Shown here one piece after another: positions 3,350 to 34,011 of a stretch of 64,000 bases of DNA. Position numbers and translations under genes: made by a program. Every line of letters starts with the position of its first letter. Within the stretch, counting starts at the first letter, position 1. Origin of the DNA: Nostoc sp. NIES-3756 (GTDB taxonomy: Bacteria; Cyanobacteriota; Cyanobacteriia; Cyanobacteriales; Nostocaceae); the NCBI RefSeq assembly GCF_001548375.1, contig NZ_AP017295.1, positions 4,994,501-5,058,500 on the forward strand, read 5' to 3'. The notes below the pieces were generated by a model that was not told where the DNA came from, did no database searches, and saw only the letters and a list, made by a program, of their open reading frames with translations.

Positions 3350-3952
3350 ATGCCTAAGATTGTTGATCATGACCAATATCGTAAAGAACTGCTCAATAAA
3401 TGCTTTGATTTGTTTGCCGAAAAAGGCTATGGTTCCGTCACCATGAGGCAAATTTCTCAAGGATTAAAGGTTTCTACAGGTACGCTTTATCATTACTTTC
3501 CCAGCAAAGAAACATTATTTGAGCAATTAGTGGAGGAAATAAGTAAACAAGATATCAGTGCAGCATTAGCGGAAATGGATGGTGCAAAAACCATAGAAGA
3601 AGCCATGACAGCATTAGGCAGATATTTAGTCAGAAATGAAGACTACTGCATCAAGTGGACATATATTTGGGTGAATTTCTGCCAGCATCAAGGCGCAAAG
3701 GAAGTACAAAATAACATTGTATTTAAACGGGTTAATCGCCGTTATCAGCAGGCTGTATGTGACTTTTTAGGTATACAAGATATGGTCATAGCTTCCTTTG
3801 TGTTGAGTTTAGTTAATGGCTTAATTTTAGAAAAACTTTGGTGTAATGAAACTATCGATATTCAAGAACAATGTGCATTATTAGGCAAAATGCTCAAGGC
3901 GTATTTGCAACAAAATCAAGTAGATAAAATGGCTAACTGCCACAACAACTGA
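3350..3952 (+). CDS. TetR family transcriptional regulator
   Basis: 200 residues. The N-terminal TetR helix-turn-helix spans about residues 10-55, with FAEKGYGSVTMRQIS and the recognition-helix region STGTLYHYF-SKE. The C-terminal ligand-binding part is divergent, as is normal in the family. It lies 33 bp upstream of a DevBCA-type exporter cluster on the same strand. The likely role is control of itself and that exporter in response to a small ligand; the ligand cannot be told from sequence. Confidence 0.9.
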   Translation: MPKIVDHDQYRKELLNKCFDLFAEKGYGSVTMRQISQGLKVSTGTLYHYFPSKETLFEQLVEEISKQDISAALAEMDGAKTIEEAMTALGRYLVRNEDYCIKWTYIWVNFCQHQGAKEVQNNIVFKRVNRRYQQAVCDFLGIQDMVIASFVLSLVNGLILEKLWCNETIDIQEQCALLGKMLKAYLQQNQVDKMANCHNN

Positions 3953-3985
3953 CAGCGTTAAATCAACTTATTTTGTGAGGGGATT

Positions 3986-5278: not shown

Positions 5279-5285
5279 GTGGATT

Positions 5286-5633
5286 ATGGTGAAAACAATC
5301 TATCTTTTGCTTTGCATCTTAGGAACAGTTTTACCTTATTCCCAGTTCCTACCATTTTTATTAGAACATGGTCTGAATATTCCCCTGTTTATCGAACAGC
5401 TATTTGCTAACAGAATATCTAGTTTCTTTGCCTTAGATTTAATTGTTTCATCTTTGGTATTTTGGGTATTTGTATTTTGGGAAGGTACACGCCTGAAGAT
5501 GCCAAACATCTGGGTTTACATAGCTTCTAATTTATTAGTTGGTGTTTCTCTCGGACTACCTTTGTTTCTATTAATAAGACACCAATATCTAGAACAGCAA
5601 ACTGATATTAAACTACGATTTAGAGAAGAATAA
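5286..5633 (+). CDS. DUF2834 membrane protein within the exporter cluster
   Basis: 115 residues with three hydrophobic segments (about 4-22, 48-66 and 77-97). The pattern LCILGTVLPYSQFLPF with later FFALDLIVSS matches the DUF2834 family of small membrane proteins. It starts 7 bp after the DevB stop, so it should be translated from the same mRNA. Its role is unknown. Its position between DevB and DevC suggests a link to the exporter, but this is inference; the second DevBCA cluster in this window lacks it. Confidence 0.8.
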   Translation: MVKTIYLLLCILGTVLPYSQFLPFLLEHGLNIPLFIEQLFANRISSFFALDLIVSSLVFWVFVFWEGTRLKMPNIWVYIASNLLVGVSLGLPLFLLIRHQYLEQQTDIKLRFREE

Positions 5634-5754
5634 TTAACCGCCGATAAATTGAAGATGTCTAATTCATCTTGCAACCAAATCTAGCCTTAGCCGAACTTTA
5701 TTGAGGTATTAACCTCATCCTCAAGTACGAAATATAAAGGTACAAGCCTAGCCG

Positions 5755-5787
5755 CAGGCAATTACGAATTACGAATTACAAATTAAA
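5755..5787. repeat. TTACGAA short tandem repeat
   Basis: Successive AATTACGAATTACGAATTACA units fill the space in front of the DevC start. The same word recurs near 12304, 12410, 56270, 58365 and 59228. Confidence 0.7.
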
Positions 5788-5791
5788 CATC

Positions 5792-6958
5792 ATGCTTACC
5801 AAAATGTTTAAGAAAACGCCGCTTGCATGGCGGCAGTTAATGAAAGAAAAGACTCGTCTATTAGTGGCAGTGGCAGGTATTACCTTTGCCGATATGCTGA
5901 TGTTTATCCAAATGGGATTTGAGAGTGCATTATTTGATGCAGCTATCAAACCTCATCGCAGTTTACAAGCAGATTTGGTGTTGATTAATCCTCAATTTCA
6001 AACGCTATTTTCTGTGAAAAGCTTTTCTCGTGAACGCATGTATCAGGCGTTAGGTTATGAGGGTGTAGAATCAGTCAGTCCTGTATATATTGGCACAGGA
6101 CAATGGCGGAATCCTGAAACTCGTCAGGATAGGGCTATTTTAGTATGGGGTATTGATCCAGCAAAATCTGCATTTGCAATTCCCGAAATTCAACAAAGTA
6201 TCGATCAAATTAAACAGTTAAATCAAGTTCTATTCGATCAGGCAGGTCGTCCAGAATACGGTGCTGTGGGTGATATTTTCAAAAAAACAAACAATTTTCA
6301 GACAGAATTGAATAGTATCAGCGTCAATGTCAAAGGAGTATTTAGTAATGGGGCTTCTTTTGCGGCTGATGGTAACGTTATTGCCAGTGATTCTACCTTT
6401 TTAAGACTATTTCCAGAACGCAAACCAGACCGGATCGAAGTAGGATTAATCACACTTAAGCCAGGGGTAGATGCAGAAAAAGTGCGATCGCAACTAGCAG
6501 CCAATTTACCCAATGATGTCAAAGTCTTAACACCAGAAGGGTTTGCCCAAACAGAAAAAGAATATTGGGCAACTGGTACAGGTATCGGCTTCATTTTCGG
6601 TATGGGTGTAGGTGTCGGCTTTATCGTTGGGATTGTGATTGTTTACCAAATTCTCTACTCCGACGTTTCCGATCACTTGCCAGAATACGCCACCCTCAAA
6701 GCAATGGGCTATACAGACCGCTATTTATTAGTAGCCCTACTGCAAGAAGCCTTATTACTTGCATTCTTTGGATATTTGCCAGCTTATATCTTCTCTTTTG
6801 GGCTGTATCAACTAACTTACGCTGCAACCATGCTGCCTATAGCTATGAAGCTAGACAGGGCAATTAATGTATTTATTCTTACCGTAATTATGTGTAGTGT
6901 TTCGGGTGCGATCGCTATGCGAAAACTCAGGTCTGCTGATCCGGCGGATGTGTTTTAG
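5792..6958 (+). CDS. DevC-type permease (FtsX/MacB family) of an ABC exporter
   Basis: 388 residues. An N-terminal membrane helix (about 25-45) is followed by a large extracytoplasmic domain (about 50-255, containing LVLINPQFQTLF and GVFSNGASFAADGNV) and three C-terminal helices (about 265-290, 310-340 and 355-378). This is the MacB-like mechanotransmission topology of DevC. Met5 is an alternative start. The stop is followed by a heptamer repeat and then DevA, so the three exporter genes read as one transcription unit with DevB. The paralogue at 29977-31149 shares the same blocks (for example GVESVSP, and YATLKAMG before the last helices). Confidence 0.9.
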   Translation: MLTKMFKKTPLAWRQLMKEKTRLLVAVAGITFADMLMFIQMGFESALFDAAIKPHRSLQADLVLINPQFQTLFSVKSFSRERMYQALGYEGVESVSPVYIGTGQWRNPETRQDRAILVWGIDPAKSAFAIPEIQQSIDQIKQLNQVLFDQAGRPEYGAVGDIFKKTNNFQTELNSISVNVKGVFSNGASFAADGNVIASDSTFLRLFPERKPDRIEVGLITLKPGVDAEKVRSQLAANLPNDVKVLTPEGFAQTEKEYWATGTGIGFIFGMGVGVGFIVGIVIVYQILYSDVSDHLPEYATLKAMGYTDRYLLVALLQEALLLAFFGYLPAYIFSFGLYQLTYAATMLPIAMKLDRAINVFILTVIMCSVSGAIAMRKLRSADPADVF

Positions 6959-6991
6959 TCATTAGTCATTGGTCATTAGTCATTAGTTATT
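6957..6991. repeat. GTCATTA heptamer repeat tract
   Basis: Tandem AGTCATT/GGTCATT heptamers fill the gap between the DevC stop and the DevA start. Confidence 0.75.
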
Positions 6992-7006
6992 GTTCCCTAA
7001 AAACCT

Positions 7007-7756
7007 ATGTTACAAGAATTTATACCTGCGCCTAATCCCTATTCCTCTGGTTTCGAGCCTGTGATTTCTGTTAATAATATCAATCATTACTTTGGTTCTG
7101 GCTCGCTGCGTAAACAAGTTTTATTTGATATTAATTTGCAGATTAACGGAGGTGAAATTGTCATTATGACAGGGCCTTCTGGCTCAGGAAAAACCACTTT
7201 ATTAACTTTGATGGGTGGCTTACGTTCTGCTCAAGAAGGGAGTTTGAAAATTTTGGGTGAAGAAATTTGTGGAGCCAGTAAGCAGAAGTTAACCAAATTA
7301 CGCCGTCAGATTGGTTATATATTTCAGGCGCATAATTTAATGACTTTTCTCACAGCTAAGGAAAATGTGCGGATGTCTCTTGAATTGCATGATGAGTATC
7401 TCAATCAAGACATCAACGCTAAAGCGATCGCTATGTTAGAAACTGTTGGTTTAGGAGATAGAGTCAATTACTATCCCGAAAATCTCTCTGGGGGACAAAA
7501 ACAACGAGTAGCGATCGCCCGCGCCCTCGTCAGTCATCCTAAAATTGTTTTAGCAGACGAACCCACAGCAGCCTTAGACAAGAAATCAGGACGCGATGTG
7601 GTGGAATTGATGCAGAAGTTAGCTAAGGAACAAGGCTGTACAATTCTGCTCGTTACCCACGACAACCGGATTCTAGATATTGCCGACCGCATTATATATA
7701 TGGAAGATGGTCAGCTAAAGAGTGATGATATAGATATTGCAGCTAGAATGCACTAA
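7007..7756 (+). CDS. DevA-type ATPase of an ABC exporter
   Basis: 249 residues. Walker A is TGPSGSGKTT (near residue 57), the Q-loop is IFQAHN, the ABC signature is LSGGQKQRVAIARAL (near 162) and Walker B is IVLADEPTAALD (near 183), with a switch His in LVTHDNR. It energises the DevC permease. The closest known relatives are heterocyst glycolipid exporter DevA and LolD/MacB-type ATPases. A second ATG does not fit better. A hairpin terminator follows 15 bp after the stop. Confidence 0.92.
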   Translation: MLQEFIPAPNPYSSGFEPVISVNNINHYFGSGSLRKQVLFDINLQINGGEIVIMTGPSGSGKTTLLTLMGGLRSAQEGSLKILGEEICGASKQKLTKLRRQIGYIFQAHNLMTFLTAKENVRMSLELHDEYLNQDINAKAIAMLETVGLGDRVNYYPENLSGGQKQRVAIARALVSHPKIVLADEPTAALDKKSGRDVVELMQKLAKEQGCTILLVTHDNRILDIADRIIYMEDGQLKSDDIDIAARMH

Positions 7757-7980: not shown

Positions 7981-8253
7981 TTGTTTCTGCCCATAAGCTG
8001 TATGTGCTGTAATAAATTATTCTTTTGATATAGAAAATACTTATAAGTAAAATAAAAAACAGTTAATGACAATATCAACTGTGTAGACAGGTCAAACTAG
8101 CATCAATTTGTCGATTTTAAAAGTGGATTAATAGTTTGGCATCATCCTTTGGTTGTGTTCTAGGACATCAACGACTTATGGAACTGTTAGAGGAGCGCGC
8201 TAATCGCACCTGAAATCGATACAATAATGCTCTGTCCTGTTGGTGCATTTTCC

Positions 8254-11200
8254 ATGACTGCCACATCCCCTACACCTTTTTCCCCTCAAGAAATCGCTGC
8301 TGAAGGTATCAAACCAGAAGAATACACAGAAATTGTGCGACGACTAGGCCGTCATCCGAATAAAGCTGAACTGGGAATGTTTGGGGTGATGTGGTCAGAA
8401 CACTGCTGCTACAAAAACTCCCGTCCCTTACTCAAACAATTTCCCACAACTGGCCCCCGTATTCTCGTAGGGCCTGGAGAAAATGCAGGGGTTGTAGATT
8501 TAGGTGAAGGTCTGCAACTAGCATTTAAAATTGAGTCTCATAACCATCCCTCAGCCGTTGAACCCTTTCAAGGTGCTGCCACTGGCGTGGGCGGCATTCT
8601 CAGAGATATTTTTACAATGGGTGCGCGTCCCATTGCTTTATTAAATTCCCTCCGCTTCGGTTCCCTAGAAGACCCCAAAACTCAAAGGTTGTTTTCTGGC
8701 GTAGTTGCGGGGATTTCACATTATGGTAACTGCTTAGTCAGTGATGAAACCTTTATCTGGAAAAATCAAGAGGGTGTGCATTTCGACACAATTGGTAACT
8801 TTGTCGAATCAAGGTTAACAGGCGATGTCACCACCTTAGAACTTGATGATGCTATTGCAGTCCAAACCTTGTCCTTAGACCCAGATAATCATACTGTTTG
8901 TTGGCAGCGTGTACGCCGTATCTTCAAGCGTCGTAGTCAAAATTTGGTGACTATCCGTACAGCCCTTGGGCGTACCTTGATTGTCACACCAGACCATCCT
9001 ATGCTGATTCGCTCACAAGGTACATGGGATATTGCTGTGGCACAGTCATTACAAGTAGGTAATGAAATCCCCATTATCACTGCATTACCAGAATTAGCTG
9101 TAGGTGAAAGCCAAGACGCAGCCCTAGATTTACTAGCAGCCACAAACCCAGAAGATGTTAGCGGTCAAGATGTTTACGTACAAATACCCCAGAATTGGCA
9201 AGTCACAGAGGTTGTACGTGCAGGTTTACGATTAATTGAACCTTCTCTAAGGAAGCGTCATCAATATTTGTCCACTGGTAGATTTCCCCTGGCACACTTT
9301 CTCGCTTTAGAACTGCTGTTAAATGTGTCGCGTAGCGATATCCGCTTATTCCGTCGCGGTAAAGCTAATTACATGAAGGCAGTAATTCAGCCTAATGATT
9401 TATTTGCCCGCTTAATCGGCTATTTTCTGGCAGAAGGCTGTGTTTCTCAAAATGGCAACACATATAAGATTATTTTCACCTTTGGGCATCATGAAACAGA
9501 GTATGTTGAGGATGCGATCGCCGGATTAAAATATTTGGGTTTACGCCCTTGTGTGGAAAAACGCGCTTCAACTATTGCTGTTTACGCTACTTCCTGGTTA
9601 TTGGGGCATTTTCTCAAGAATGTTTGGCAGTGCGGCACTGAGGCAAGTAATAAAGCCTTCCCTGCTTTTGTCTTCCAATGGTCACAACAATTGCAGTATG
9701 AAGCCCTTAAAGGTCTATTACGTGGTGATGGTTGTATGACTACCAAAACTAATGGTAATCACGCCAAAATTAGTTTTGCCACCACCAGCCACAAATTATT
9801 TGAGCAAGCAGTCCTACTACTGCAAAGCCAAGGCGTGATGCCTTATATCTATCGCCAAGGCGCAACTAACGGAGAAATTCAAGGACGCAAGCACATCCGC
9901 AAACCATTGTGGCAATTAGAAGTTAGTAATTTTACTGCCTTAAAATCCTTAACCACTGTTTTCAGTCAACAGCGTAACGAAGAATTGGCTGTGGCTTTAA
10001 ATCGTTACAATGGCACAAAATATTCATTCCCACGTTTTACCCAATCAACTCAAGATGTAGCTGTTGTCAAAATCAAAAGTATTGAATGTCAAACAGTGGA
10101 TGAATGTGATGTGTACGATGTAGAAGTAGACAACACTCATCTTTTCATCACTTCATCAGGTATTGTCACACACAACTGCGTCGGCGTGCCGACAGTTGGC
10201 GGTGAAGTCTACTTTGACCCCGCCTATTCAGGAAATCCCTTGGTAAATGTCATGGCTTTGGGATTGATGGAAACCCCAGAAATCGTCAAATCTGGGGCAT
10301 CTGGTATAGGTAATCCTGTACTATATGTAGGTTCCACCACTGGGCGCGATGGCATGGGTGGTGCTAGTTTTGCTAGCGCAGAATTAACGGATGAGTCAAT
10401 AGATGACCGTCCAGCCGTGCAAGTGGGCGATCCTTTTTTAGAGAAGTCATTAATTGAAGCTTGTTTAGAAGCATTTAAAACAGGCGCAGTGGTAGCAGCC
10501 CAAGATATGGGTGCTGCGGGGATTACCTGTTCTACTTCCGAGATGGCAGCTAAAGGCGGTGTTGGTATCGAATTAGATTTAGACAAGATTCCTGTACGGG
10601 AAACAGGCATGGTTCCCTATGAATATTTACTGTCAGAGTCTCAAGAGCGAATGTTGTTTGTTGCCCACAAGGGACGGGAACAAGAATTAATTGATATTTT
10701 CCACCGTTGGGGCTTACAGGCTGTGGTTGCTGGTACAGTCATTGCCGAACCTATCGTCAGAATTTTCTTTCAGGGTGCAGTCGCCGCCGAAATTCCGGCT
10801 GATGCGTTGGCGGAAAATACTCCACTTTATGAGCGTGAGTTACTAGCACAACCACCAGAATATGCTCGTCAAGCTTGGCAATGGTCGTCGGATGCTTTAC
10901 CTACTTGTACAACTGCGGGTATTGAAATTCAAAGAAATGTACAGAGTTGGCACGATATTCTGTTAACTTTACTGAATACCCCAACGATCGCCTCAAAAAA
11001 TTGGGTATACCGTCAGTATGATCACCAAGTGCAAAATAACACTGTCTTCCTTCCAGGTGGGGCAGATGCGGCAATAGTACGTTTACGTCCTCTGGAAGAA
11101 ATTCAAACTTCGACCGTCAAAATTCAAAATTTTAATTCTGGTGTGGCGGCTACCGTTGACTGTAATTCTCGATACGTTTACCTTGATCCCTATGAGGGAG

Positions 11201-12060
11201 CTAAGGCAGTGGTGGCAGAAGCAGCCCGGAATCTCAGTTGTGTGGGTGCAGAACCTTTGGCGGTGACAGATAACCTCAATTTTGGCAGTCCAGAAAAACC
11301 CATCGGTTACTGGCAATTGTCAGAAGCTTGTCGTGGTTTGGCGGAAGGTTGTCGAGAATTATCTACGCCTGTAACTGGTGGGAATGTCTCTCTATATAAC
11401 GAAACTGTTGATACTCAAGGTAATCCCCAACCTATTTACCCAACCCCCGTGGTGGGAATGGTGGGGTTAATTCCCGACTTAACAAAAATTTGCGGTCAAG
11501 CTTGGCAAACTGTTGGTGATGTGATTTACCTATTGGGATCGTCCACAACCAGTTTAGGCGCATCTGAATATTTAGCTACTATCCACGGCACTATAGCAGG
11601 TAGACCGCCACGGGTTGATTTTGATTTGGAACGCCGTGTGCAGAAAGTTTGCCGTGATGGTATTCGTTCTGGTTGGGTGCGTTCAGCCCATGACTGTGCT
11701 GAGGGGGGTTTAGCTGTTGCTTTAGCTGAATCTTGTGTAGCTGGTAACTTAGGGGCGGAAGTACGTCTGGAAATTTCTCCAACTCAGTTTCAGCGCTTGG
11801 ATGAAGTGCTGTTTGGTGAGGGTGGGGCGAGAATTTTAGTGTCTGTAGCTGCAACAGACACAGACATTTGGGAATCCTATTTACAGGAACATCTAGGGCA
11901 AGATTGGCAAAAATTAGGTATGGTTGAAAATACCGAAACAGGTTTGGGGGTTTTAACCACTGATAACCAAACCTTAATCCGCGCTAGGATCGAAGATATG
12001 AATGATCGCTATCAAAATGCGATCGCTCAAAGGTTAGCTATCTCTAACACTACCACCTAA
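8254..12060 (+). CDS. purL: Phosphoribosylformylglycinamidine synthase II, interrupted by an intein
   Basis: Makes FGAM from FGAR with ATP and glutamine-derived ammonia, the fourth step of purine synthesis. The precursor has 1268 residues; removing the intein at residues 160-641 leaves 786, the normal PurL length. Visible PurL motifs are [11 protein letters not shown] and [18 protein letters not shown] in the N-terminal part and [15 protein letters not shown] and [10 protein letters not shown] in the C-terminal part. The intein sits after SHYGN, and the extein resumes as [16 protein letters not shown] chose the ATG at 8254 because homologues begin close to the [10 protein letters not shown] segment; ATG 8227 would add nine residues. 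Function should depend on splicing. purF follows after a repeat-rich gap. Confidence 0.95.
8731..10176 (+). mobile_element. Intein (482 aa) with LAGLIDADG homing endonuclease in PurL
   Basis: Block A begins with Cys1 ([10 protein letters not shown]). Block B carries TPDH in LIVTPDHPM. Two dodecapeptide endonuclease motifs are seen, LIGYFLAEG and LKGLLRGDG, each ending with the acidic residue plus Gly needed for catalysis. Block F is [13 protein letters not shown] and block G ends in IVTHN, followed by extein Cys+1 (TGC at 10177). All splice-junction residues (Cys1, His-Asn, Cys+1) are present, so it should splice, and the endonuclease motifs look intact. Insertion is at the conserved GN/C(V/I)G(V/I)PT glycine-rich site of PurL. 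Confidence 0.95.
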
Positions 12061-14196: not shown

Positions 14197-15588
14197 TTAA
14201 AACTCGGCGTTTTGTGGTGTACGAGGGAAGGGTATTACATCCCGAATATTCCCCATACCTGTGATAAATTGCACGAGTCTTTCAAAACCTAAGCCGAAAC
14301 CAGCGTGAGGCACTGTACCATAACGGCGTAAATCGAGATACCACCACAAATCTTCAGGCTTCATCCCTTGCGCTAAAACACGGCGTTCTAGCACATCTAA
14401 CCGTTCCTCCCTTTGGGAACCGCCGATAATTTCCCCAATTTTGGGTGCTAAGATATCCATTGCGCGGACGGTTTTTTCATCGTCGTTTAGGCGCATGTAG
14501 AAGGCTTTAATCTGCGCTGGGTAGTCAGTAACAATCACTGGTTTTTTAAATAATTGTTCTGCTAAGTAACGTTCGTGTTCTGATTGTAAATCTAAGCCCC
14601 AACTTACAGGATATTCAAACTTGAAATCGGCTTTTTCTAATAGTTTGATGGCATCTGTATAAGTCAAACGCTCAAATTGATTGTTAATGATATTCTCGGC
14701 TGTTGCTAAGACTGTATCATCAATGCGTTGGTTGAAAAATTCCATATCTTCCGGGCATTTTTCCAACACAAAGTTAAAAATGTGTTTGAGAAACGCCTCG
14801 GCTAAATCCATATCACCTTCTAAGTCACAGAATGCCATTTCTGGTTCCACCATCCAAAATTCTGCCAAGTGGCGGGAGGTGTTGGAGTTTTCTGCACGGA
14901 AGGTAGGGCCAAAGGTGTAGACGTTGCTAAACGCCATCGCCATGACTTCGGCTTCTAGTTGTCCACTTACAGTTAAGTAGGTGGGTTTGGCGAAGAAGTC
15001 TTGGCTGTAATCAATCTCTTGGTTTTCTGTGCGAGGAACATTCTTTAAATTCAAGCTGGTGACGCTGAATAGTTCCCCTGCGCCTTCGCAGTCGCTAGCG
15101 GTGATAATGGGGGTGTGTACCCACAAAAAATCCCTTTCTTGGAAAAATTGGTGAATAGCGGCGGAACAAGCATTTCTGACGCGGAAAACTGCACCGAAGG
15201 AATTGGTGCGAGATCGCAAATGTCCAATACTGCGTAAAAATTCAAAAGAGTGGCGTTTCTTTTGCAAAGGATAAGTTTCGGGATCAGCCTCACCGTAGAC
15301 TTTCACTGTCTCGGCTTTCAACTCAATACGCTGTCCTTTCCCTTGGGAAGCCACCAACACGCCAGCCACTTCCACTGACGCACCTGTATTTAATCGTTTA
15401 ATAATTGCTTCGTAGTCTGGCAAATCCTGATTGATGACAGCTTGCAAATTAGCTAGGGATGACCCATCATTAACCTCAATAAATGCAAACCCCTTGAGTT
15501 CACGCTTCGTTCTTACCCAGCCTTGAACTACCAGAGACTCATCAGGTTGACCATTCCGTAATATTTCTGCAATCCGTCGATTTACCAT
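14197..15588 (-). CDS. asnS: Asparaginyl-tRNA synthetase
   Basis: 463 residues from the ATG at 15588. The N-terminal OB-fold anticodon domain (about 1-110, with [16 protein letters not shown]) is followed by the class II catalytic core. Motif 2 is seen as [21 protein letters not shown] and motif 3 as [12 protein letters not shown] near the end. The AsnRS-type [10 protein letters not shown] segment is present. It charges tRNA-Asn. The gene converges with purF across a shared terminator. A TTG three codons upstream is the only alternative start and is unlikely. Confidence 0.97.
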
Positions 15589-15697
15589 ATCATGCAATTT
15601 CTAATTCGTTAATACAGGGAATACAGCTATTCTCAGAATGTTAACAGCTAACTCAATCCAAAATCCAAAATCCAAAATTTAAAATCTAAAATCAGAC

Positions 15698-16063
15698 TCA
15701 CCCAGCATAAGACTTTAATATCCAGCCTATAATAACGCCCATTCCACCAAAGCGGACGGCTTGCCAGAAAGGTTTTTTCAGACTACGCCAAGAAAACAAC
15801 TGGCTTTCTAAGTTTAGTTCTAGCATTTCTAGTTGCTGTTTGATTTGCCGTAACTGGGCTTTTATTTCCGGGGTCTGAGATTTATTTTGCTGTAATTCTT
15901 GATGGCGTTGTTGCCATTGTGCCTGTTGTTCGCGATCGCGCGTTACTTGAGCATACCTTTCTTGGAGGCTCAATAGCGATCGCTCTACTTCTGCTAATTC
16001 CTGTTCAAAATCTGGTTCTTGATTATTCTCTGGCAGTTGGGATGATTTTTTCGGCGGCTTCAT
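15698..16063 (-). CDS. Small coiled-coil protein with C-terminal membrane anchor
   Basis: 121 residues. The first 20 residues are polar (KPPKKSS). Residues about 20-90 are rich in Glu, Gln and Leu with heptad spacing, suggesting a coiled coil. Residues about 98-116 (AVRFGGMGVIIGWIL) form one hydrophobic helix near the C-terminus, so the protein is probably tail-anchored. It is divergent from the gene at 16118, with a shared 54-bp promoter gap. I do not recognise a named family. Confidence 0.7.
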   Translation of the reverse strand: MKPPKKSSQLPENNQEPDFEQELAEVERSLLSLQERYAQVTRDREQQAQWQQRHQELQQNKSQTPEIKAQLRQIKQQLEMLELNLESQLFSWRSLKKPFWQAVRFGGMGVIIGWILKSYAG

Positions 16064-16117
16064 TTACAAGTAGTAAAGTATAAGGTAAATGTCACTGCTG
16101 CCAATAGTTATCTATTT

Positions 16118-16414
16118 ATGTCTCAACCTAGCCAGCTTTCTAAAACCACTCAACTTAATGAATTTAGCGACTTGGAACTAGCCCAAGCTCTCATGGAAAG
16201 GCTGAGTATTTCGCCTAACGATTGGCATCGCCTCAAGTCTAACCGCAATTCTCGCGCTAGTGAACAATTAGCAGCCGCTATGGTATTTTTGCTTAAAAAT
16301 CAACCACAAGAAGCTCTTGCTAGACTAGAACAAGCTGTTGGTTGGTTAAATCGTTCTATCTCCGCCCCTCCTTGTCCTTCTCATGGTGATAAGGGAGTAA
16401 GAAGTGCCGAGTAA
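16118..16414 (+). CDS. Small conserved cyanobacterial protein (possibly DUF6439)
   Basis: 98 residues, mostly helical, with LELAQALMERLSISPNDWHRL followed by an Ala/Leu-rich helix (AAAMVFLLKNQPQEALARLEQA). The layout resembles short cyanobacterial proteins grouped as DUF6439, but I am not certain. The last 15 or so residues, after the conserved-looking helix, are probably variable. A short repeat tract follows the stop. Function unknown. Confidence 0.65.
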   Translation: MSQPSQLSKTTQLNEFSDLELAQALMERLSISPNDWHRLKSNRNSRASEQLAAAMVFLLKNQPQEALARLEQAVGWLNRSISAPPCPSHGDKGVRSAE

Positions 16415-16499
16415 TGAGTTTTGAGTGCTGAGTATTTACTTAGCACGGGCTAAACGCCCCGCTACCACTAACAAAACTCAGCACTCATCACTAACTTCC

Positions 16500-16949
16500 T
16501 TATCGCCGCAGGGACAGGCGGGGGCGGTTTTCCATTTGTTTACACAGTCTTAATTCTGTGCCTTTACGGTTCCACTCTACTTGGTCAAAAATTTGGTGGA
16601 GAAGGCACATTCCGCGACCATTTTCTGCCTCATCGGAGGGTAAGTAATCTGTAGGATCTTCAGTATGACTAGTAGTGGGGTTAAAACCTTCGCCTTGGTC
16701 GGATATCACCCACCAATACTGATTATCTATGAGGGAAAAACGGACTAAAACTGTTTTGCTAGGGTCAAGATTATTGCCATGTTTGGCTGCGTTTACTAGG
16801 GCTTCTTGTAACCCTAGCCGCAGTTCTGCTTGTAGTTTGGCGGGAATTTCCGCCAAGAGTAAATCTAATATAGGACAAAGATAGAGAGTTGAGGCGAAAC
16901 TAATAGTACCCCAATAGCGTCCAACTGGACGGAGCGAAATGGTTATCAC
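16500..16949 (-). CDS. Anti-sigma-factor-type ATP-binding kinase (RsbW/HATPase_c_2)
   Basis: 149 residues forming a single GHKL ATPase domain. The N box is LGLQEALVNAAKHGN, the G1-like box is VISDQGEGFNP and a later glycine motif is NGRGMCLLHQIFD. These motifs are those of Ser/Thr kinases that bind and switch off anti-sigma antagonists. No partner antagonist, phosphatase or sigma gene is adjacent, so the target is unknown. The start is taken as GTG at 16949, which gives a normal family length. Confidence 0.85.
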   Translation of the reverse strand: MITISLRPVGRYWGTISFASTLYLCPILDLLLAEIPAKLQAELRLGLQEALVNAAKHGNNLDPSKTVLVRFSLIDNQYWWVISDQGEGFNPTTSHTEDPTDYLPSDEAENGRGMCLLHQIFDQVEWNRKGTELRLCKQMENRPRLSLRR

Positions 16950-17370
16950 GAGAGAAACCCCATAGCTTTCAGTTAGCTAGACATCAGTTTGCTTCTATAG
17001 GCACCCTGATAAAGATGGAGGTGGTCATGCTGCCTTCAAACTTGCGTCTTTATTACTAAGTTTTGAAAATGCTGGGGAGCATTAACCCTAATTATGAGGT
17101 TCGATTGCTGATACATAAATCGGCTTTAATAGAGTGTGCTATTAGGATTAGCTATGAAATAAATTTAAAGATTATGAGGGTTTTTACTCCTCTTTGGATT
17201 GCCGATTAGTATTTTGAACAATCTTGCTCATTTGGTGTTAGAGCTTATGCAACTTTAATGATTTTAACAAAATTATTTCTATTTTTAGGTTAATCCTATT
17301 TTAGCATTTCTACTATGCAATAGACTACAAATTTGAAGTGAAATTTTTTTAAGGACTAAGTATCCTTGCC
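16950..17370. other. Intergenic gap with no recognised feature
   Basis: 421 bp between the anti-sigma-type kinase and rlmD (both minus strand). It is AT-rich with stop codons in all frames. A weak AAGGA/TCCTT hairpin (about 17351-17367) lies just after rlmD. No gene, tRNA or strong repeat was found. Confidence 0.5.
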
Positions 17371-18738
17371 CTATTGTGATAGCTCCAGAAAAGCCGCAGC
17401 TTCCACATGAGCTGTTTGGGGGAAAAAATCGGCGGGTTGAATACGTTTAATTGTATATAGGCCATCTTCACAAAGTAGTTTAAGGTCACGGGCAAGAGTG
17501 GCTACCTTACAGCTGACGTAAACGATGCGGGCAGGTTTCGAGGCTAATAAAGATTCGATGACAATGCGATCGCACCCTTTACGTGGCGGGTCTAGTATGA
17601 CCACATCTGGTATTATTCCCATCTTTGGCAGTAATTTCTCAACTGCCCCGACTTGAAATTGCACATTATTAATGCCATTGTGTTGAGCATTGGAAATTGC
17701 CTGTTGTACAGCTTGGGGTTGCAACTCTAATCCTATAGCTTGGTGTACGTGTCTAGTTAAAGGCAAGGTTAAGGTGCCAATGCCACAGTAGGCATCAACT
17801 AGGGTTTCATGACCTTGTAAATTCAGTTCAGATTGAATGACCTCTAATAACGCCTCAGCCGTTTCTGTGAAGACTTGGAAAAATGTATCCGGACGGACTT
17901 GAAATTCCAACCTAGCAAAAATTTCTCGCAGATAAGGAACCCCAGCAATACAACGGGTTTCTCTACCAAAAATTGCATTGGTGCGTTCAGGGTTACGATT
18001 TAATGACACTCCTACCAACTGAGGATAGCGCTGTAACCATTCTTGGGCTTGTTGTTCAATTCCTGGTAAATTCCAGTCCTTGACTACCAAAGTTAATAAA
18101 ATTTCACCTGTACGCCGTCCAATGCGTAACCCCAGATGACGAATTTGTCCTTGATGACGATTTTCATTGTAAATAGACCAGCCGCGTTGTTGGATATCCT
18201 GCTTAACTTCTGCGAGTAAAGGATTTAAGCGGGGATCTTGGACTGGACATTGATTTAGGTTCACTAAATGATGGCTACCCTTTTGGTAATACCCAGCTTG
18301 CACTTGACCTGTAGCGGAAATATCCAAAGGATAGGTAGCTTTATTGCGATAACCCAAAGCTGAAGCAGCTACTAATACAGGATCTACAGGAGGTTCAGCA
18401 AAACCGCCTATACGTTGTAAAGCTTGGATAACTTGATTGCGTTTAGCAATCAGTTGATATTCATAATCAATATGTTGCCACTGACAACCGCCGCACTTAT
18501 CCGCCACAATACAACCCGGACGAATGCGGTGAGGCGATGGTTCTAGTATCTGGTGCAGCTTTGCGTGGGCATATTTAGGTTTAACGTGTACCAAGCGTAC
18601 CATTAGGCGATCGCCCGGTACAGTATCCGGAACAAACACCACCCGTTCCTCAAAACGTCCCACCCCATCACCAGTATCACTCAAGTCGCTAATAGCAACC
18701 TCAATTAATTCACCCTGAAGCCAAGTAGATTTAGTCAT
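17371..18738 (-). CDS. rlmD: 23S rRNA (uracil-5-)-methyltransferase RlmD/RumA family
   Basis: 455 residues. An N-terminal TRAM domain (about 1-65) precedes a 4Fe-4S cysteine set (CIVADKCGGCQW, with a further Cys in NQCPVQD). The SAM site is DAYCGIGTLTLPL, the catalytic region is LDPPRKGCD, and YVSCKVATLARDL holds the nucleophilic cysteine. These identify a TrmA/RlmD-family m5U methyltransferase. Cyanobacterial members could act on 23S U1939 or U747, or on tRNA U54, so the exact site is not settled. Heptamer repeats begin immediately before its start. Confidence 0.92.
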   Translation of the reverse strand: MTKSTWLQGELIEVAISDLSDTGDGVGRFEERVVFVPDTVPGDRLMVRLVHVKPKYAHAKLHQILEPSPHRIRPGCIVADKCGGCQWQHIDYEYQLIAKRNQVIQALQRIGGFAEPPVDPVLVAASALGYRNKATYPLDISATGQVQAGYYQKGSHHLVNLNQCPVQDPRLNPLLAEVKQDIQQRGWSIYNENRHQGQIRHLGLRIGRRTGEILLTLVVKDWNLPGIEQQAQEWLQRYPQLVGVSLNRNPERTNAIFGRETRCIAGVPYLREIFARLEFQVRPDTFFQVFTETAEALLEVIQSELNLQGHETLVDAYCGIGTLTLPLTRHVHQAIGLELQPQAVQQAISNAQHNGINNVQFQVGAVEKLLPKMGIIPDVVILDPPRKGCDRIVIESLLASKPARIVYVSCKVATLARDLKLLCEDGLYTIKRIQPADFFPQTAHVEAAAFLELSQ

Positions 18739-29264: not shown

Positions 29265-29957
29265 TCAGCCAGTTTCCTTAATTAGCCTACCATCTTCTAT
29301 ATGAATGATGCGATCAGATATGTCTAAAATTCTACTATCATGAGTAACCATTAAAATGGCACAATTTTGCTCCTTGGCTAATAACTGCATCAGGTCAACA
29401 ACATTTCTACCTGATTTACTATCTAATGCCGCAGTCGGTTCATCAGCCAGAACTAATTTAGGATGCCGTACTAAAGCACGAGCAATAGCTACTCTTTGCT
29501 TTTGACCTCCAGATAGTTGAGATGGATAGTAATTTATTCGATTCCCTAATTTAACAGTATGCAGCATAGCTTCGGCTTTTCTACAAGCTTCCCTGGAAGA
29601 AATATTATTTTCTAAATCCAATGCTATTTGCACATTTTCACGAGCAGTTAAAAAATTAAGTAAATTATGAGATTGAAAAATATAGCCAATCTGCCGACGT
29701 ACTTGTAGTAACTGCTCATTATTAGCTCCATAAAGCTCGTGATTGATAAATTTTATATTTCCCTTCTGCACAGAACGTAATCCACCAATTAATGTAAGTA
29801 AAGTAGTTTTACCTGAACCTGATGGGCCAGTCATAGTAACAATTTCTCCAAATTTTATTTGCATGTTAATATCAAATAAAATTTGCTTTTTCAACCTTTG
29901 TTCACCAAAGTAATGGTTAACATGTTTGATGTCAACAATAAAATTTGTTCTGACCAT
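29265..29957 (-). CDS. DevA-type ATPase of the second exporter
   Basis: 230 residues. Walker A TGPSGSGKTT, signature LSGGQKQRVAIARAL and Walker B LVLADEPTAALD are all intact. It is a close paralogue of the ATPase at 7007-7756; the segment HVNHYFG-LKKQILFDIN aligns with HYFGSGSLRKQVLFDIN there. There is no C39 peptidase domain, so it cannot itself cleave double-glycine leaders. Last gene of the minus-strand DevB-DevC-DevA operon, 26 bp from the convergent REC-kinase. Confidence 0.92.
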   Translation of the reverse strand: MVRTNFIVDIKHVNHYFGEQRLKKQILFDINMQIKFGEIVTMTGPSGSGKTTLLTLIGGLRSVQKGNIKFINHELYGANNEQLLQVRRQIGYIFQSHNLLNFLTARENVQIALDLENNISSREACRKAEAMLHTVKLGNRINYYPSQLSGGQKQRVAIARALVRHPKLVLADEPTAALDSKSGRNVVDLMQLLAKEQNCAILMVTHDSRILDISDRIIHIEDGRLIKETG

Positions 29958-29976: not shown

Positions 29977-31149
29977 TTAAAAAATATCTGCTGGATCTAC
30001 ACTACGCAGTTTATTTGTACATATAAAACCAGAAGCAAAGCACATTAAGATTATAAAAACTAGCACTAAACTTGCTTTATCTATACTCATAATAACTGGT
30101 AGGTTAGTCGCATCTTCTGCTATGTCATACAAAAATAGAGATAAGATAAAACCAGGTAGATAACCGAAAAAAGATAAGGACAAAGATTGGTTAAAAATTA
30201 TATTTAACAAATATTTATTTTTAAAACCCATTGCTTTAAGAGTTGCATATTCAGCTAAATGGCTAGCGATATTACTATAAAGAATTTGATAGACAACTAC
30301 TATACCAACAATGAATACCATAATCACCATCAATTGAAATACAAAACCTATAGGCGCTCGTGATTTCCAGTATTTTTTTTCCAAATCAATAAAATCTTGA
30401 TGCGTAATTACTATTACATCTTTAGGTAATTTAGCTGATAACTCATTTAAAACCTGCTGAGTGTTAGCATTAGATTTTAGTTTAATTAAGCCTATATCTA
30501 TATTTTTTCCTGAACGTTCTGGAAATATTTGAAAAAAACTAGAAGTACTTAAAATTAAATTTCCATCCACTCCAAAGGATGGGCCTAGACTAAATAAACC
30601 AGCAACTTTTACCTTATAACCAATTGATGAAGAATAGTTAAATAGCTCGACAATAACAGTTTTACCCTGATTAAACTCTTCAGCTATTGGGCCAAATTCA
30701 GTCCTGGATTTCTTATCAAATAAAACCATGTTTGGTAGTTGTAAGAGAATAAATTCTTGTTGAGAGATAGATATTTTTAAACTATTGCTAAATGGATCAA
30801 TAGCTAGAATGTATATTGGTGCTTTAATTCCATTAACCGAATTTTTTAATTTGGCGAACTGCATATATAACGGACTAACTGATTCCACACCATCACAACC
30901 TAATATCTGATATAAATACCAACGTGGAAAACTTTGATTTAAAGTCAAAGATTGATATTGATGACTCAGAATAAATAAATCACCCTGTAAGTTCTTATGT
31001 AGTTGCGTAGCACTAGTGTATAAAGCATCTTGAAAACCAATTTGTATAAACATTAATACCGTAATAAAAGCTATTCCTGTCAACGCTACGCAAAAACGAA
31101 CTTTTTGCCGAGCGAGTTGTAACCAACCTATAGGTATAGTTAGAATCAT
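29977..31149 (-). CDS. DevC-type permease of the second exporter
   Basis: 390 residues with the FtsX/MacB topology: one N-terminal helix (about 18-38), a long extracytoplasmic domain (about 40-262, with GLFSLGPSFGVDGNL) and three C-terminal helices (about 267-290, 312-342 and 360-382). YATLKAMGFKNKYLL marks the region before the last pair. Paralogous to 5792-6958, and the order with DevB upstream and DevA downstream is the same. Base composition is more AT-rich than the first copy. Confidence 0.9.
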   Translation of the reverse strand: MILTIPIGWLQLARQKVRFCVALTGIAFITVLMFIQIGFQDALYTSATQLHKNLQGDLFILSHQYQSLTLNQSFPRWYLYQILGCDGVESVSPLYMQFAKLKNSVNGIKAPIYILAIDPFSNSLKISISQQEFILLQLPNMVLFDKKSRTEFGPIAEEFNQGKTVIVELFNYSSSIGYKVKVAGLFSLGPSFGVDGNLILSTSSFFQIFPERSGKNIDIGLIKLKSNANTQQVLNELSAKLPKDVIVITHQDFIDLEKKYWKSRAPIGFVFQLMVIMVFIVGIVVVYQILYSNIASHLAEYATLKAMGFKNKYLLNIIFNQSLSLSFFGYLPGFILSLFLYDIAEDATNLPVIMSIDKASLVLVFIILMCFASGFICTNKLRSVDPADIF

Positions 31150-31207: not shown

Positions 31208-32395
31208 TTATATAGTAATGTTTACCTGCACTTGTAAGTTAGTTAAAGTAGTGATTTTCTGGTTTTCTTTCATATTATTAATCCGAATTTTGACTTCAAT
31301 TACTTTGTTATCGGTATCAGTTTGTAAATTGTTGAAAATATTTTGTTTACCGAGTTGTAAACCAATATCTGTAACAGTTCCATGCAATTTCGTTGGTAAT
31401 ACATCACTTGTAATAACAGCTGACTGACCTAGACGTATTTTTTTTATATCGGTCTCATAAATTTCTGCTACTACATACATTTGCTGTGTACGCCCTAAGT
31501 CGGCTATTCCTATATTGCTGATAATTTCTCCAGGACGAGTATTAATTTTGAGAAGTTGTCCAGTGATAGGCGATCGCACAGTACTTAATTCCAACTCTGC
31601 TTGAGCTTGCTTAACCGCAGCTTTTGTACTTTCAACAATAGCTTGAGCGGCTTCCACATCAGCCAAACGAACCTCTGTCATACTCTTCAACTTGGCTTTT
31701 GCTTCATTTAACTGCTGTTGAATAGTTTTGAGAGTCCGATGATGAGAAGCTTTGGCTTCCTGATATTGCTGTTGAGCGACTTTTAGCCGTAAATACTTTG
31801 CTTCGGCCTCAGAAGCCGAAATTGCTCCTAATTTGTATAATTGTTGATATCGCTGATTTTCACTGTCAACATTAGCTAACTCAGCCTCTAGGCGAACTAT
31901 TGTTGCTTGTTGTACAGAAGTTGCTCCATCTAAATCGGCTTCTAGACGAGCTATTGTTGCTTTCTGTGCAGAAATATCACCGGCTTTAGCCCCTGCTTTC
32001 ACTTGATTAAGACTAGCTTGTGCAACTAAGACCTGCTTTTTTGCCATTTCTAAAGCAGCAAGACGGGAATAATAACTATCAACAATAGCAACTATTTGTC
32101 CTTGACGTACCCAACTTCCTTGGTTGAAAAAAAATTTTGCTACTCGAACACCCCCTTGGGAATTAGGCGCAGATAGACGAATTACTTCTCCTTCCGGTTC
32201 TAAATAGCCTAAAGCAGTCACAACTTTTATGGTAGGTGAACTAGTAGGTGTCGGTGAGTCTACGTTTAATTTCAACTGCGATCGCCAAAAGCTATAGAGA
32301 GAAACTGTACTTGTAATGACAGCGATCGTAGCTGTCAACATTACTGACCACCAGACTAAAGGTTTTGTTGATGACTGTCTTTGTTTGTATACCAT
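31208..32395 (-). CDS. DevB-type membrane-fusion subunit of the second exporter
   Basis: 395 residues. One N-terminal membrane helix (about 14-34), a first lipoyl half (FFNQGSWVRQGQIVAIVD), a long Ala/Gln-rich hairpin (about 95-260) and a second lipoyl half (STVRSPITGQLLKINTRPGE). It is the periplasmic adaptor of the exporter and would dock to an outer-membrane TolC channel encoded elsewhere. The double-glycine peptide gene at 32647-32922 lies 251 bp upstream on the same strand, and two more peptide genes are divergent. Confidence 0.9.
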   Translation of the reverse strand: MVYKQRQSSTKPLVWWSVMLTATIAVITSTVSLYSFWRSQLKLNVDSPTPTSSPTIKVVTALGYLEPEGEVIRLSAPNSQGGVRVAKFFFNQGSWVRQGQIVAIVDSYYSRLAALEMAKKQVLVAQASLNQVKAGAKAGDISAQKATIARLEADLDGATSVQQATIVRLEAELANVDSENQRYQQLYKLGAISASEAEAKYLRLKVAQQQYQEAKASHHRTLKTIQQQLNEAKAKLKSMTEVRLADVEAAQAIVESTKAAVKQAQAELELSTVRSPITGQLLKINTRPGEIISNIGIADLGRTQQMYVVAEIYETDIKKIRLGQSAVITSDVLPTKLHGTVTDIGLQLGKQNIFNNLQTDTDNKVIEVKIRINNMKENQKITTLTNLQVQVNITI

Positions 32396-32646: not shown

Positions 32647-32922
32647 TCATATTAGCCAGCGTAGAATTAATGCTTCTGCCTCAGATAGCATAATGACCCA
32701 ATTGATAGTTAATCGGGAAAAATCAAAAGTAAAGAGTTTATTATTATCGACATTAACTAGGCTAGGAAATGTATTGGATAAATTATTAATTCCATCATGA
32801 ACAGTGCTGAGTTCAACAATAGTATCACCCCCTAGCACAGTCTCAGCTTGCACATGATGTATCTCGTGGAAGAAATCAGACATACTAATTTCATGCAAGC
32901 CATAGATGTTTTTCTGATTCAT
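32647..32922 (-). CDS. Double-glycine leader peptide 1 (upstream of the exporter)
   Basis: 91 residues from the ATG at 32922 (AAAG before it); an upstream start at 32991 would break the leader alignment. The leader is exactly 32 residues, with Phe17 and a hydrophobic residue at 21, and ends ETVLGG. The 59-residue core begins DTIVELSTVHDGIN and holds DNNKLFTFDFSR-x4-NW, shared with peptides 2 and 3, then an extra hydrophobic tail (VIMLSEAEALILRWLI) that the others lack. It is a putative secreted peptide, reading toward DevB. No cysteine is left in the core, so lanthionine or disulfide rings are unlikely. Confidence 0.7.
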   Translation of the reverse strand: MNQKNIYGLHEISMSDFFHEIHHVQAETVLGGDTIVELSTVHDGINNLSNTFPSLVNVDNNKLFTFDFSRLTINWVIMLSEAEALILRWLI

Positions 32923-33372
32923 TGTTATCTTTCTGTAATTAAGAGTAAGGTGGATTTTTTCTACACAATGTTCTGCAATGATTAGACTCAAATAATAATT
33001 ATATTTTTATTGCTTGTGTTGCAACCAATTGTAAGCGAATATTTTTGAGAAGTCATTTCCGAAATCTGTAATATTTCGTGAAATATATTTTTAAAAATTT
33101 GTTTGAAAAATATTACCGATAACATCAAATTCTCTCAGCAAGCACAATATGTAATTAAAAGCCTAAGTTATTAAATAAATACTATTTATATAGAATAAAT
33201 CAAATTCTGAACTAGAATATGATTAAAAAAGTTAAAATAAATATCATTACATGAGACAATAAAGTTTTATTTGTGTCTTAAAAATTATTCAAAATAGTAG
33301 ATTTAGAAAAGTTATTTAGATATAATTCCATTAGATTGTAGTAAACCTATTAACTATAATTAAATCAAAATT
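32923..33372. other. AT-rich divergent promoter region of the peptide genes
   Basis: 450 bp between peptide 1 (minus) and peptide 2 (plus). It is very AT-rich with stops in all frames and many TATAAT-like words (for example near 33195 and 33352). It probably holds promoters for both directions. No operator repeat was clear. Confidence 0.5.
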
Positions 33373-33633
33373 ATGTCTAAAATTATAATTTCAGACTCAC
33401 CTTGTAATCGTATCAATACATTTATCCAAAAGCTAACTCCAGAGGAAGCAGACACTATATTAGGAGGTATGTATCCTTATGGATTTAAGATAATTAATAT
33501 TACCGATAGCGTTTCAATCAACACTGTCGGAGGAGATAATACAGTTGAAGCTGGTACAAATTCAATCAGTTACCACGATAATAAAATTCATACCATAGAC
33601 TATTCAAGGTCTAATATTAACAGATTTTATTAG
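33373..33633 (+). CDS. Double-glycine leader peptide 2
   Basis: 86 residues. The 32-residue leader shows Phe17 and ends LTPEEADTILGG, a classic double-glycine processing site with acidic residues before it, as in bacteriocin and Nif11-type leaders. The 54-residue core starts MYPYGFKIINITDSV and has HDNKIHTIDYSRSNINRFY at its C-terminus, matching peptides 1 and 3. The core has no Cys. It is divergent from peptide 1 and followed by peptide 3. Cyanobacterial proteins annotated as CTB-family bacteriocins have similar leaders, but I cannot confirm membership. Confidence 0.7.
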   Translation: MSKIIISDSPCNRINTFIQKLTPEEADTILGGMYPYGFKIINITDSVSINTVGGDNTVEAGTNSISYHDNKIHTIDYSRSNINRFY

Positions 33634-33765
33634 ACTTTAATCATTCCTGTTACTGAATTTCAAAAAGTTACTCATATAATTATTACATTCAACTGGGAGG
33701 AATAAAATCGATAATTATACTAAAAGTTATATTGCAGAAAAAATCTAATTATGTAACTTAAGACA

Positions 33766-34011
33766 ATGACTCAGATAGCAATTCCCTCAGCAATTTTTAC
33801 TAATTTAGGATTATTTTTTTACTACCTGTCACCATGTCAATCTGAGGCTATATCTGGAGGTTATACTTCTTTTACAGTAATGAACATAACTGATGGTATC
33901 AACACAGTTAATAATACATACAGAGGTGATTATTCGTTTAACTTCCACGATAATAAAATTTACACCGTAGATTATTCCAGATCCAATTACAATTGGTTTT
34001 TTGTCTGGTAA
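33766..34011 (+). CDS. Double-glycine leader peptide 3
   Basis: 81 residues. The leader is again 32 residues (Phe17; LSPCQSEAISGG). The 49-residue core begins YTSFTVMNITDGIN and ends with HDNKIYTVDYSRSNYNW followed by FFVW. Alignment with peptide 2 is clear along the core's second half, and peptide 1 shares the DGIN and NT(F/Y) steps too. It lies 132 bp after peptide 2 on the same strand and probably arose by duplication. Function unknown; export by the neighbouring DevBCA-type pump is an inference. Confidence 0.7.
   Translation: MTQIAIPSAIFTNLGLFFYYLSPCQSEAISGGYTSFTVMNITDGINTVNNTYRGDYSFNFHDNKIYTVDYSRSNYNWFFVW

Follow-up and report, generated by a model that had tools for sequence, protein, structure and literature searches.

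Double-glycine peptides of an unnamed two-type family encoded beside a separate branch of DevBCA exporters in Nostoc sp. NIES-3756

This work presents three precursor genes with double-glycine (GG) leaders, pep1, pep2, and pep3, that lie beside genes for a DevBCA exporter in Nostoc sp. NIES-3756. The window (the whole stretch of 64,000 nucleotides that was analyzed; contig NZ_AP017295.1, positions 4,994,501 to 5,058,500) contains the following features at this locus, with coordinates counted from its first base:

29265..29957, minus strand: devA, ATPase subunit (NCBIfam TIGR02982, 364 bits, cut-off 296; Pfam ABC_tran)
29977..31149, minus strand: devC, FtsX/MacB-type permease (NCBIfam TIGR01185, 435 bits, cut-off 290; Pfam FtsX and MacB_PCD)
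31208..32395, minus strand: devB, membrane-fusion subunit (NCBIfam TIGR02971, 305 bits, cut-off 129)
32647-32922, minus strand: pep1, type B precursor of 91 aa (leader 32, core 59), the first gene before devB
33255..33277, no strand assigned: 23-bp inverted repeat GACA-N15-TGTC, a weak copy, 118 bases before pep2
33373-33633, plus strand: pep2, type A precursor of 86 aa (leader 32, core 54)
33766-34011, plus strand: pep3, type A precursor of 81 aa (leader 32, core 49)

The start of pep1 was placed at the ATG at 32922; the open reading frame (ORF) listing runs on to a TTG at 32991. A gap of 252 bases separates pep1 from devB on the same strand, and pep2 and pep3 are transcribed the opposite way, which is the layout described by the original prediction for this DNA (one peptide gene reading toward devB, the other two divergent). 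At some distance in the window, positions 8227-12060 hold a purL-type gene whose 1277-aa protein contains two inserted domains, one for intein splicing and one that is LAGLIDADG-like.

The peptide features that had been predicted were seen in all three translations: each leader has 32 residues, with Phe17 and a final Gly31-Gly32, and the cores of 59, 54, and 49 residues contain no Cys. Six residues near the C-terminal end are invariant among the three peptides (N70, K71, T74, D76, S78, and R79 in pep2 numbering). The shared motif, first written with DN-K, is real overall but needs loosening for pep1, where DNNKLFTFDFSR fits "DN-K" only approximately. When the 64-kb window was scanned in six frames for ORFs of 55-130 aa from an in-frame ATG, exactly three had GG at positions 31-32, namely pep1, pep2, and pep3; as the sole ORFs of this kind, they are more than a chance occurrence. 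The identity proposed for the exporter held up, all three proteins exceeding the NCBIfam Dev cut-offs. DevA had been described as free of a C39 domain; a Pfam search found neither C39 nor any other peptidase domain in DevA, DevB, or DevC.

The proposed search of cyanobacterial genomes was carried out with a family profile built from 52 members, which gave matches in 63 of the 217 genomes of the window's own family (taken to be Nostocaceae); the pep2 query alone had found homologs in 18 of 99 relatives. Nostoc sp. NIES-3756 itself encodes a fourth member (C1:3155764-3155994). Against 5.8 billion proteins, the profile returned 82 matches. Every organism printed for these is a cyanobacterium, any source name printed is "hypothetical" or "uncharacterized protein," and none bears a Pfam domain. 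A search of Pfam and NCBIfam with pep1-3, including the NHLP/Nif11 precursor models, gave no family over its cut-off (the best subthreshold model was PF04604, type-A lantibiotic, on pep2, with 12.9 bits against a cut-off of 21.7). The best candidate for a relative of solved structure had an E value of 0.35, which is chance level. No paper in the PMC literature was retrieved for four family locus tags and one guessed neighbor tag, and among the papers listed by further searches, no title or abstract presents the peptide-DevBCA pairing. In sum, pep1, pep2, and pep3 are members of an unnamed peptide family with two types.

Type A cores carry HDNKI.T.DYSRS and an aromatic end, and type B cores carry NKLFT.DFSRLTIN and a hydrophobic end. 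A total of 78 stretches were mapped; one (L048) was without a family member, leaving 77 clusters, drawn from 51 genomes in 19 genera, which derive from the matches listed and are therefore not all clusters of the 63 genomes. Among the matches listed, these clusters hold 119 type A and 62 type B members (181 altogether), with type labels assigned automatically and retained even where some "A" members look B-like by eye (L047, L154-L156, and L165). Both types are present in 46 of the 52 clusters that have at least two members. Label shuffles of these 52 clusters gave a mean of 32.7 and a maximum of 42 mixed clusters, with 0 of 5,000 shuffles reaching 46; the shuffles ignore relatedness, and a mixed cluster nevertheless occurs in 18 of the 19 genera. 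The co-encoding of two different peptides, a criterion used for class IIb bacteriocins, was thus found in 46 of 52 clusters. For the leader, upstream, and motif analyses, three of the 181 typed members were dropped for want of a clear leader, leaving 178 (118 A and 60 B).

The C-terminal extension of pep1, whose relatives lie at loci L031, L032, and L111 (the last a paralog), is common to the other DevBCA-linked type B peptides and is also found at L033, L037, and L111. Selection was gauged by comparing the window, L031, and L032, with the L111 paralog added for pep1. The dN/dS values, for which several dS estimates are near or at saturation, were 0.24-0.53 for pep1, 0.34-0.47 for pep2, and 0.20-0.21 for pep3; those of devB and devC were 0.14-0.22. 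Core dN was lower than leader dN in 11 of 12 pairs, identifying the core as the part under stronger constraint. AlphaFold2 yielded no usable fold for either peptide modeled, confidence being low for both pep1 (45-sequence alignment; mean pLDDT 47.5, pTM 0.17) and pep3 (75-sequence alignment; mean pLDDT 45.1, pTM 0.22). The pep3 alignment comprised 75 hand-chosen sequences from 89 nonredundant type A sequences, and eight "YCQ" variants were omitted from both alignments.

Exporter context was assigned by hand, by checking the surroundings of each cluster for proteins resembling P0012, the HlyD and PpiC that go with it, and DevA, DevB, and DevC. Among the matches listed, 22 of the 77 clusters adjoin HlyD/C39-exporter genes, 10 adjoin devB-devC, and 45 adjoin neither, a class that may miss linked genes where stretches stop at contig edges. 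Two assignments deserve mention: L035, which has a DevA-like ATPase (38%) in its vicinity, was placed in the unlinked class, and L049 has PpiC and HlyD on a contig that ends before any C39 exporter. Within the C39 class (n = 22, among the matches listed), HlyD is present in all 22 clusters, a long C39 ABC exporter in 21, and PpiC in 14. This corresponds to the group II set of a long C39 exporter with a CAP_ED domain, HlyD, and SurA/PpiC, which stands beside precursors elsewhere (e.g., at L034); near the window cluster, neither a linked C39 exporter nor such a C39(CAP_ED)/HlyD/SurA-PpiC set was found. The three genera with DevBCA-linked clusters and the eight with C39-linked clusters do not overlap.

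The 10 DevBCA-linked clusters include devA in nine cases. All seven loci of genera g7 and g27 have the order B-devB-devC-devA-A on one strand; in genus g1 (the window, L031, and L032), the B gene stands immediately upstream of devB, with the A genes on the opposite side. At eight loci, the peptide genes have two conserved neighbors, one encoding a protein with sigma-70 region 2 and the other an unnamed protein of 234 aa (L114 4187-5688, with equivalents at L033, L037, L131, L133, L135, L137, and L142), and L152 shows the sigma gene only, near the edge of its stretch. The predicted pairing of these peptides with DevBCA therefore stands for 10 genomes in three genera, with a full operon in seven and a DevB/DevC clade of its own. 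As a general rule it is not supported, in that 67 of the 77 clusters among the matches listed are without linked DevBCA. Homologs with no exporter nearby, which had been named in advance as a finding that would speak against the pairing, make up part of the family (the 45 clusters with neither exporter).

Phylogenies built from 50 DevB and 50 DevC sequences place the ten peptide-linked copies together in a single clade (FastTree support, 1.0), nested among DevB and DevC proteins of 58-69% identity. A census in which the best 8 candidates per genome were scored found DevB of at least 73% identity in 10 of 217 genomes, in each of them next to the peptide genes, with the next match at 70%. Genomes G008, G182, G188, and G194 carry both kinds of DevB. 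The co-occurrence check that the original prediction had called for thus recovered one clade found only with these peptides (10 of 10), and on this genomic evidence the link between DevBCA and the peptides is real, with only the DevB clade of at least 73% identity taking part in it. We had also considered co-occurrence with window-like DevB (at least 58% identity) across 99 relatives as a measure of the link; this was rejected, as core-profile members numbered 0 in 25 further stretches (L081-L105). The window contains a second DevBCA set at 3350-7756, after a TetR-type regulator and with no family peptide near it.

Polyketide synthase-like genes adjoin the DevB relatives in some of the stretches L081-L105, and 6 of the 19 maps listed for the 58-69% set show devB next to a very large gene; the two of these genes that were tested are polyketide synthases. 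Canonical DevBCA exports heterocyst glycolipid (PMC8277102). With the peptide-linked clade nested among relatives of this kind, DevBCA might export a lipid-like partner and the peptides might function together with it, for instance as part of a layer of the envelope. We consider this improbable, because inspection by eye of the first ORF residues revealed no polyketide synthase gene in the ten peptide-linked stretches and because the 67 clusters noted above carry these peptides with no DevBCA linked to them.

Three loci lack part or all of devBCA. At L031 (4466-5760; genome G004), devB and devC adjoin the peptides, and another, unrelated gene occupies the place expected for devA. No devA was detected at an E value of 1e-10 or better in this 20-kb stretch or in its named copy, L169, so the pump at L031 would need an ATPase from elsewhere. 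L033 and L037 retain the flanking order c18-sigma-A-B-A seen at the g7 and g27 loci, yet they are without devBCA, and tblastn for devBCA remnants gave no match below an E value of 0.5 at either one; the peptides therefore persist there without the pump. In a tree built from the short B peptides, the L033 and L037 copies fall among the DevBCA-linked ones, a weakly supported placement (group support, 0.43) that would mean loss of devBCA at these two loci. The same gaps, devA at L031 and devBCA at L033 and L037, can be held in favor of an inherited chance neighborhood in which peptides and pump have no joint function, as can the confinement of all ten cases to one clade, since they may then go back to a single joining event. 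The recurrence of the pair in three genera and two arrangements with a same-strand order makes such an accident very improbable, as does the census of 217 genomes (best 8 candidates each), in which no clade member was found away from the peptides.

The leaders bear on how the peptides might be processed. GG occurs exactly at positions 31-32 after an in-frame Met in 115 of the 181 members, and 89 of these 115 have Phe17, so the equal leaders of pep1-3 are largely a family trait; among DevBCA-linked members, 27 of 41 have GG at 31-32. Using members picked by GG at 31-32 alone, we counted hydrophobic residues at the positions relevant to C39 recognition. DevBCA-linked leaders are hydrophobic at -4 in 27 of 27, at -12 in 27 of 27, and at -7 in 18 of 27 cases; the corresponding counts are 20/21, 21/21, and 15/21 for C39-linked leaders and 63/67, 66/67, and 53/67 for unlinked leaders. 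Residues 19, 25, and 27 are hydrophobic in 0 of the 27 DevBCA-linked leaders. A different way of choosing leaders favored 32 residues and C39-like features, and its larger counts were set aside for that bias. Judged by their GG end and hydrophobic -4, -7, and -12 positions, the leaders have the makeup of C39 substrates. The earlier suggestion that the peptides may keep their leader appears disfavored, since the DevBCA-linked copies retain these C39-type features.

An unlinked C39 peptidase, which had likewise been proposed as something to look for, was readily found, with nine C39 matches in the Nostoc sp. NIES-3756 genome that are unlinked to the peptide locus. The exporter at C1:2491828-2494830 (cluster L075), 2.5 Mb from the window, has C39, ABC, and cNMP domains over the Pfam cut-offs, and its stretch also encodes HlyD, PpiC, and six other GG peptides. 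The L075 peptide cores that are printed contain no Cys. A HopA1-domain protein and an APH-like kinase are encoded near GG peptides of another core type in this stretch (15159-16415 and 16423-17592) and at L034 (4326-6820), a pair resembling the one that dehydrates Ser/Thr in class V lanthipeptides and thioamitides. All 12 genomes that were checked encode a C39 exporter with 78-88% identity to the group II reference away from the peptide locus, and the genomes of L033 and L037, with no devBCA at the locus, both retain a group II C39 exporter.

These observations weigh on the idea that DevBCA alone exports the peptides, the leader being kept or cut by some other protease. A dedicated clade and an operon would suit such a pump. 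Darobactin, a modified heptapeptide of ribosomal origin, is carried by DarBCD, an ABC pump of the same general kind, and the model for its ATPase DarD (NCBIfam NF038007) ranks near the top of the named models when DevA is scored, with 188 bits, far below the cut-off of 375; because this model scores on DevA, peptide export by such a pump has a precedent. Retention of C39-type leader features, the C39 exporters in all 12 genomes checked, and the lack of a peptidase domain in DevA, DevB, and DevC nevertheless make unaided export by DevBCA an improbable account.

The inverted repeat upstream of pep2 recurs across the family, mostly about 105-150 bases upstream of many type A genes. It is present upstream of 42 of 118 A genes, 4 of 60 B genes, and 17 of 3,560 first-order resampled upstreams, and its total length is 23 in 40 of the 46 cases. 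With a pattern defined by a spacer of 11-17 plus a fixed edge, the repeat precedes 15 of 22 C39-linked, 22 of 65 unlinked, and 5 of 31 DevBCA-linked type A genes. Looser spacing (total length, 19-23) recovers it before 9 of 31 DevBCA-linked A genes, in 8 of 10 clusters. A weight matrix, whose background windows were drawn from the same loci and may include true sites, is passed by 0 of 10 DevBCA-linked, 17 of 22 C39-linked, and 17 of 45 unlinked clusters; the pep2 copy scores 14.7, a value reached by 0.9% of these background windows. Common control with the C39-linked copies is thus weakly indicated, as the strong repeat is missing from all 10 DevBCA-linked clusters, where only a degenerate form is seen, and a single regulator common to all clusters was rejected as a strong claim. 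A stricter pattern has four distinct matches in the Nostoc sp. NIES-3756 genome, including the pep2 copy, against 0 for a reversed-pattern control. Of the other three, the first falls within an ORF of 459 aa, the second has no ORF of at least 55 aa less than 400 bases away, and the third sits at a distance of about 1 kb from a small ORF of GG type. No site was found before the three L075 GG genes tested, out of six. NtcA sites (GTAN8TAC) occur upstream of 6 of 178 family genes.

The repeat was also observed upstream of GG-peptide genes whose cores are of other families, at a distance of about 110-160 bases and at 11 of 12 sites inspected (the exception being L154 9654):

L036: 1207 and 2059
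L037: 4808
L039: 1676 and 2496
L113: 1295
L116: 2478
L139: 4791
L144: 15017 and 15618
L147: 4241

This distribution suggests that one regulator may be common to several GG-peptide families.

Taken together, the best explanation at present, which we favor tentatively and rate at somewhat below even odds, is that a C39 protein cuts the precursors and DevBCA then expels the mature A and B peptides. In this relay, the distant C39 exporter, or another of the nine C39 matches, would cleave after Gly32 and the same exporter would carry the core across the inner membrane; DevBCA, presumably with a TolC-type outer-membrane channel, would then clear the periplasm or envelope of the mature peptides of both types by expelling them. 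The A and B cores would probably act jointly outside the cell. We regard the relay as the simplest reading because the leaders are C39-ready, the pump is without a peptidase of its own, and every genome checked encodes a C39 exporter. In Escherichia coli, MacAB-TolC reportedly secretes a peptide from the periplasm (PMC8277102), and for HetC, release of the substrate into the periplasm has been proposed (PMC10986499). Against the relay count the 45 of 77 clusters (among the matches listed) with neither exporter, the loci L033 and L037 without devBCA, L031 without devA, the lack of the strong repeat in the DevBCA-linked clusters, the low confidence of both structure models, and the possibility that a single joining event accounts for all ten links. 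The predicted combination of pump and separate peptidase is partly upheld: conserved linkage and unlinked C39 matches favor it, most clusters are without DevBCA, and DevBCA is a candidate transporter of the peptides. In other genera, a linked HlyD-C39 exporter would perform both steps. Since these genera carry the same peptides beside a one-step exporter, the exporter would be exchangeable. A fuller scenario, possible but more doubtful than the relay as such, is that a single recruitment event turned a DevBCA lineage whose relatives export lipids into a pump dedicated to these leader-processed peptides, forming a two-stage relay of C39 exporter and tripartite MacB-type pump in which the exporter can be exchanged.

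The C39 exporter might instead do all the secretion, with DevBCA serving as an immunity pump that clears peptides lodged in the producer's envelope. The two-peptide set recalls two-peptide bacteriocins, the C39 exporter is kept in 12 of 12 genomes, and the absence of devBCA at L033 and L037 fits an accessory role. MacB-type pumps, moreover, act on periplasmic substrates (PMC8277102). Purifying selection on the cores and several paralogs per genome are nonetheless unlike an arms race, and 22 C39-linked clusters (among the matches listed) do without linked DevBCA. We know of no antimicrobial activity for these peptides, and on balance we find the immunity pump rather unlikely. Conserved cores and many paralogs lean weakly toward a structural or signaling role. 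Candidate roles are a matrix protein as for EbfG (PMC4997328 and PMC9981879), a two-peptide antimicrobial, or a signal.

Several known systems resemble the arrangement in part. The cyanobacterial "bacteriocin" clusters of group II (Wang, Fewer, and Sivonen, 2011; PMC3140520) have GG precursors of similar size, and 22 of the 77 family clusters (among the matches listed) adjoin exporter genes of that group; the window cluster, in contrast, has no such gene nearby. Group II cores are described as having very little conservation, unlike the conserved, A/B-paired cores found here. DevBCA is not named in the first parts of that paper, and its supplementary precursor lists may include single members of the family. 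In Synechococcus elongatus, the biofilm proteins EbfG1-4 are likewise several small GG proteins encoded together, and they are secreted via a C39 exporter, PteB (PMC4997328 and PMC9981879). According to PMC4997328, mature EbfG has no homologs among the proteins of other cyanobacteria. A motif like the EbfG amyloid hot spot (A-Phi-N-I-small) is only weakly enriched in A cores, with 23 of 118 against 11.4 in shuffled sequences for a narrow form and 32 of 118 against 11.2 for a wider one; the narrow form occurs in 2 of 60 B cores against 7.7 shuffled.

On the exporter side, the window proteins resemble the heterocyst glycolipid exporter DevBCA-HgdD in passing the three NCBIfam Dev models and differ from it in that the window pump belongs to a clade of its own, found next to peptide genes. 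The genome encodes a further DevB, different from this clade, that outscores the window DevB on the NCBIfam model (428 versus 305 bits). HetC of Nostoc PCC 7120 is a long C39 exporter with a cyclic-nucleotide-binding domain, like the exporter in the window's own genome (PMC10986499). It has no known substrate and is one candidate among the C39 exporters, the peptides pointing no more to it than to another.

GG peptides are reported to be prevalent in cyanobacteria (PMC4997328). Few cyanobacterial GG peptides have a known job, and this family offers conserved cores and a regular A/B pairing. The sequence comparisons suggest a peptide secretion arrangement, not yet described, beside a DevBCA branch of its own. 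The family also constitutes a natural experiment, in which the same peptides occur with a C39 exporter, with DevBCA, or with neither, and one locus exists with and without devBCA. The locus bears on a question already raised for HetC, namely, the fate of peptides released into the periplasm. Should the pump indeed carry these peptides, recruitment for peptide export would have befallen a family of exporters otherwise associated with lipids and drugs.
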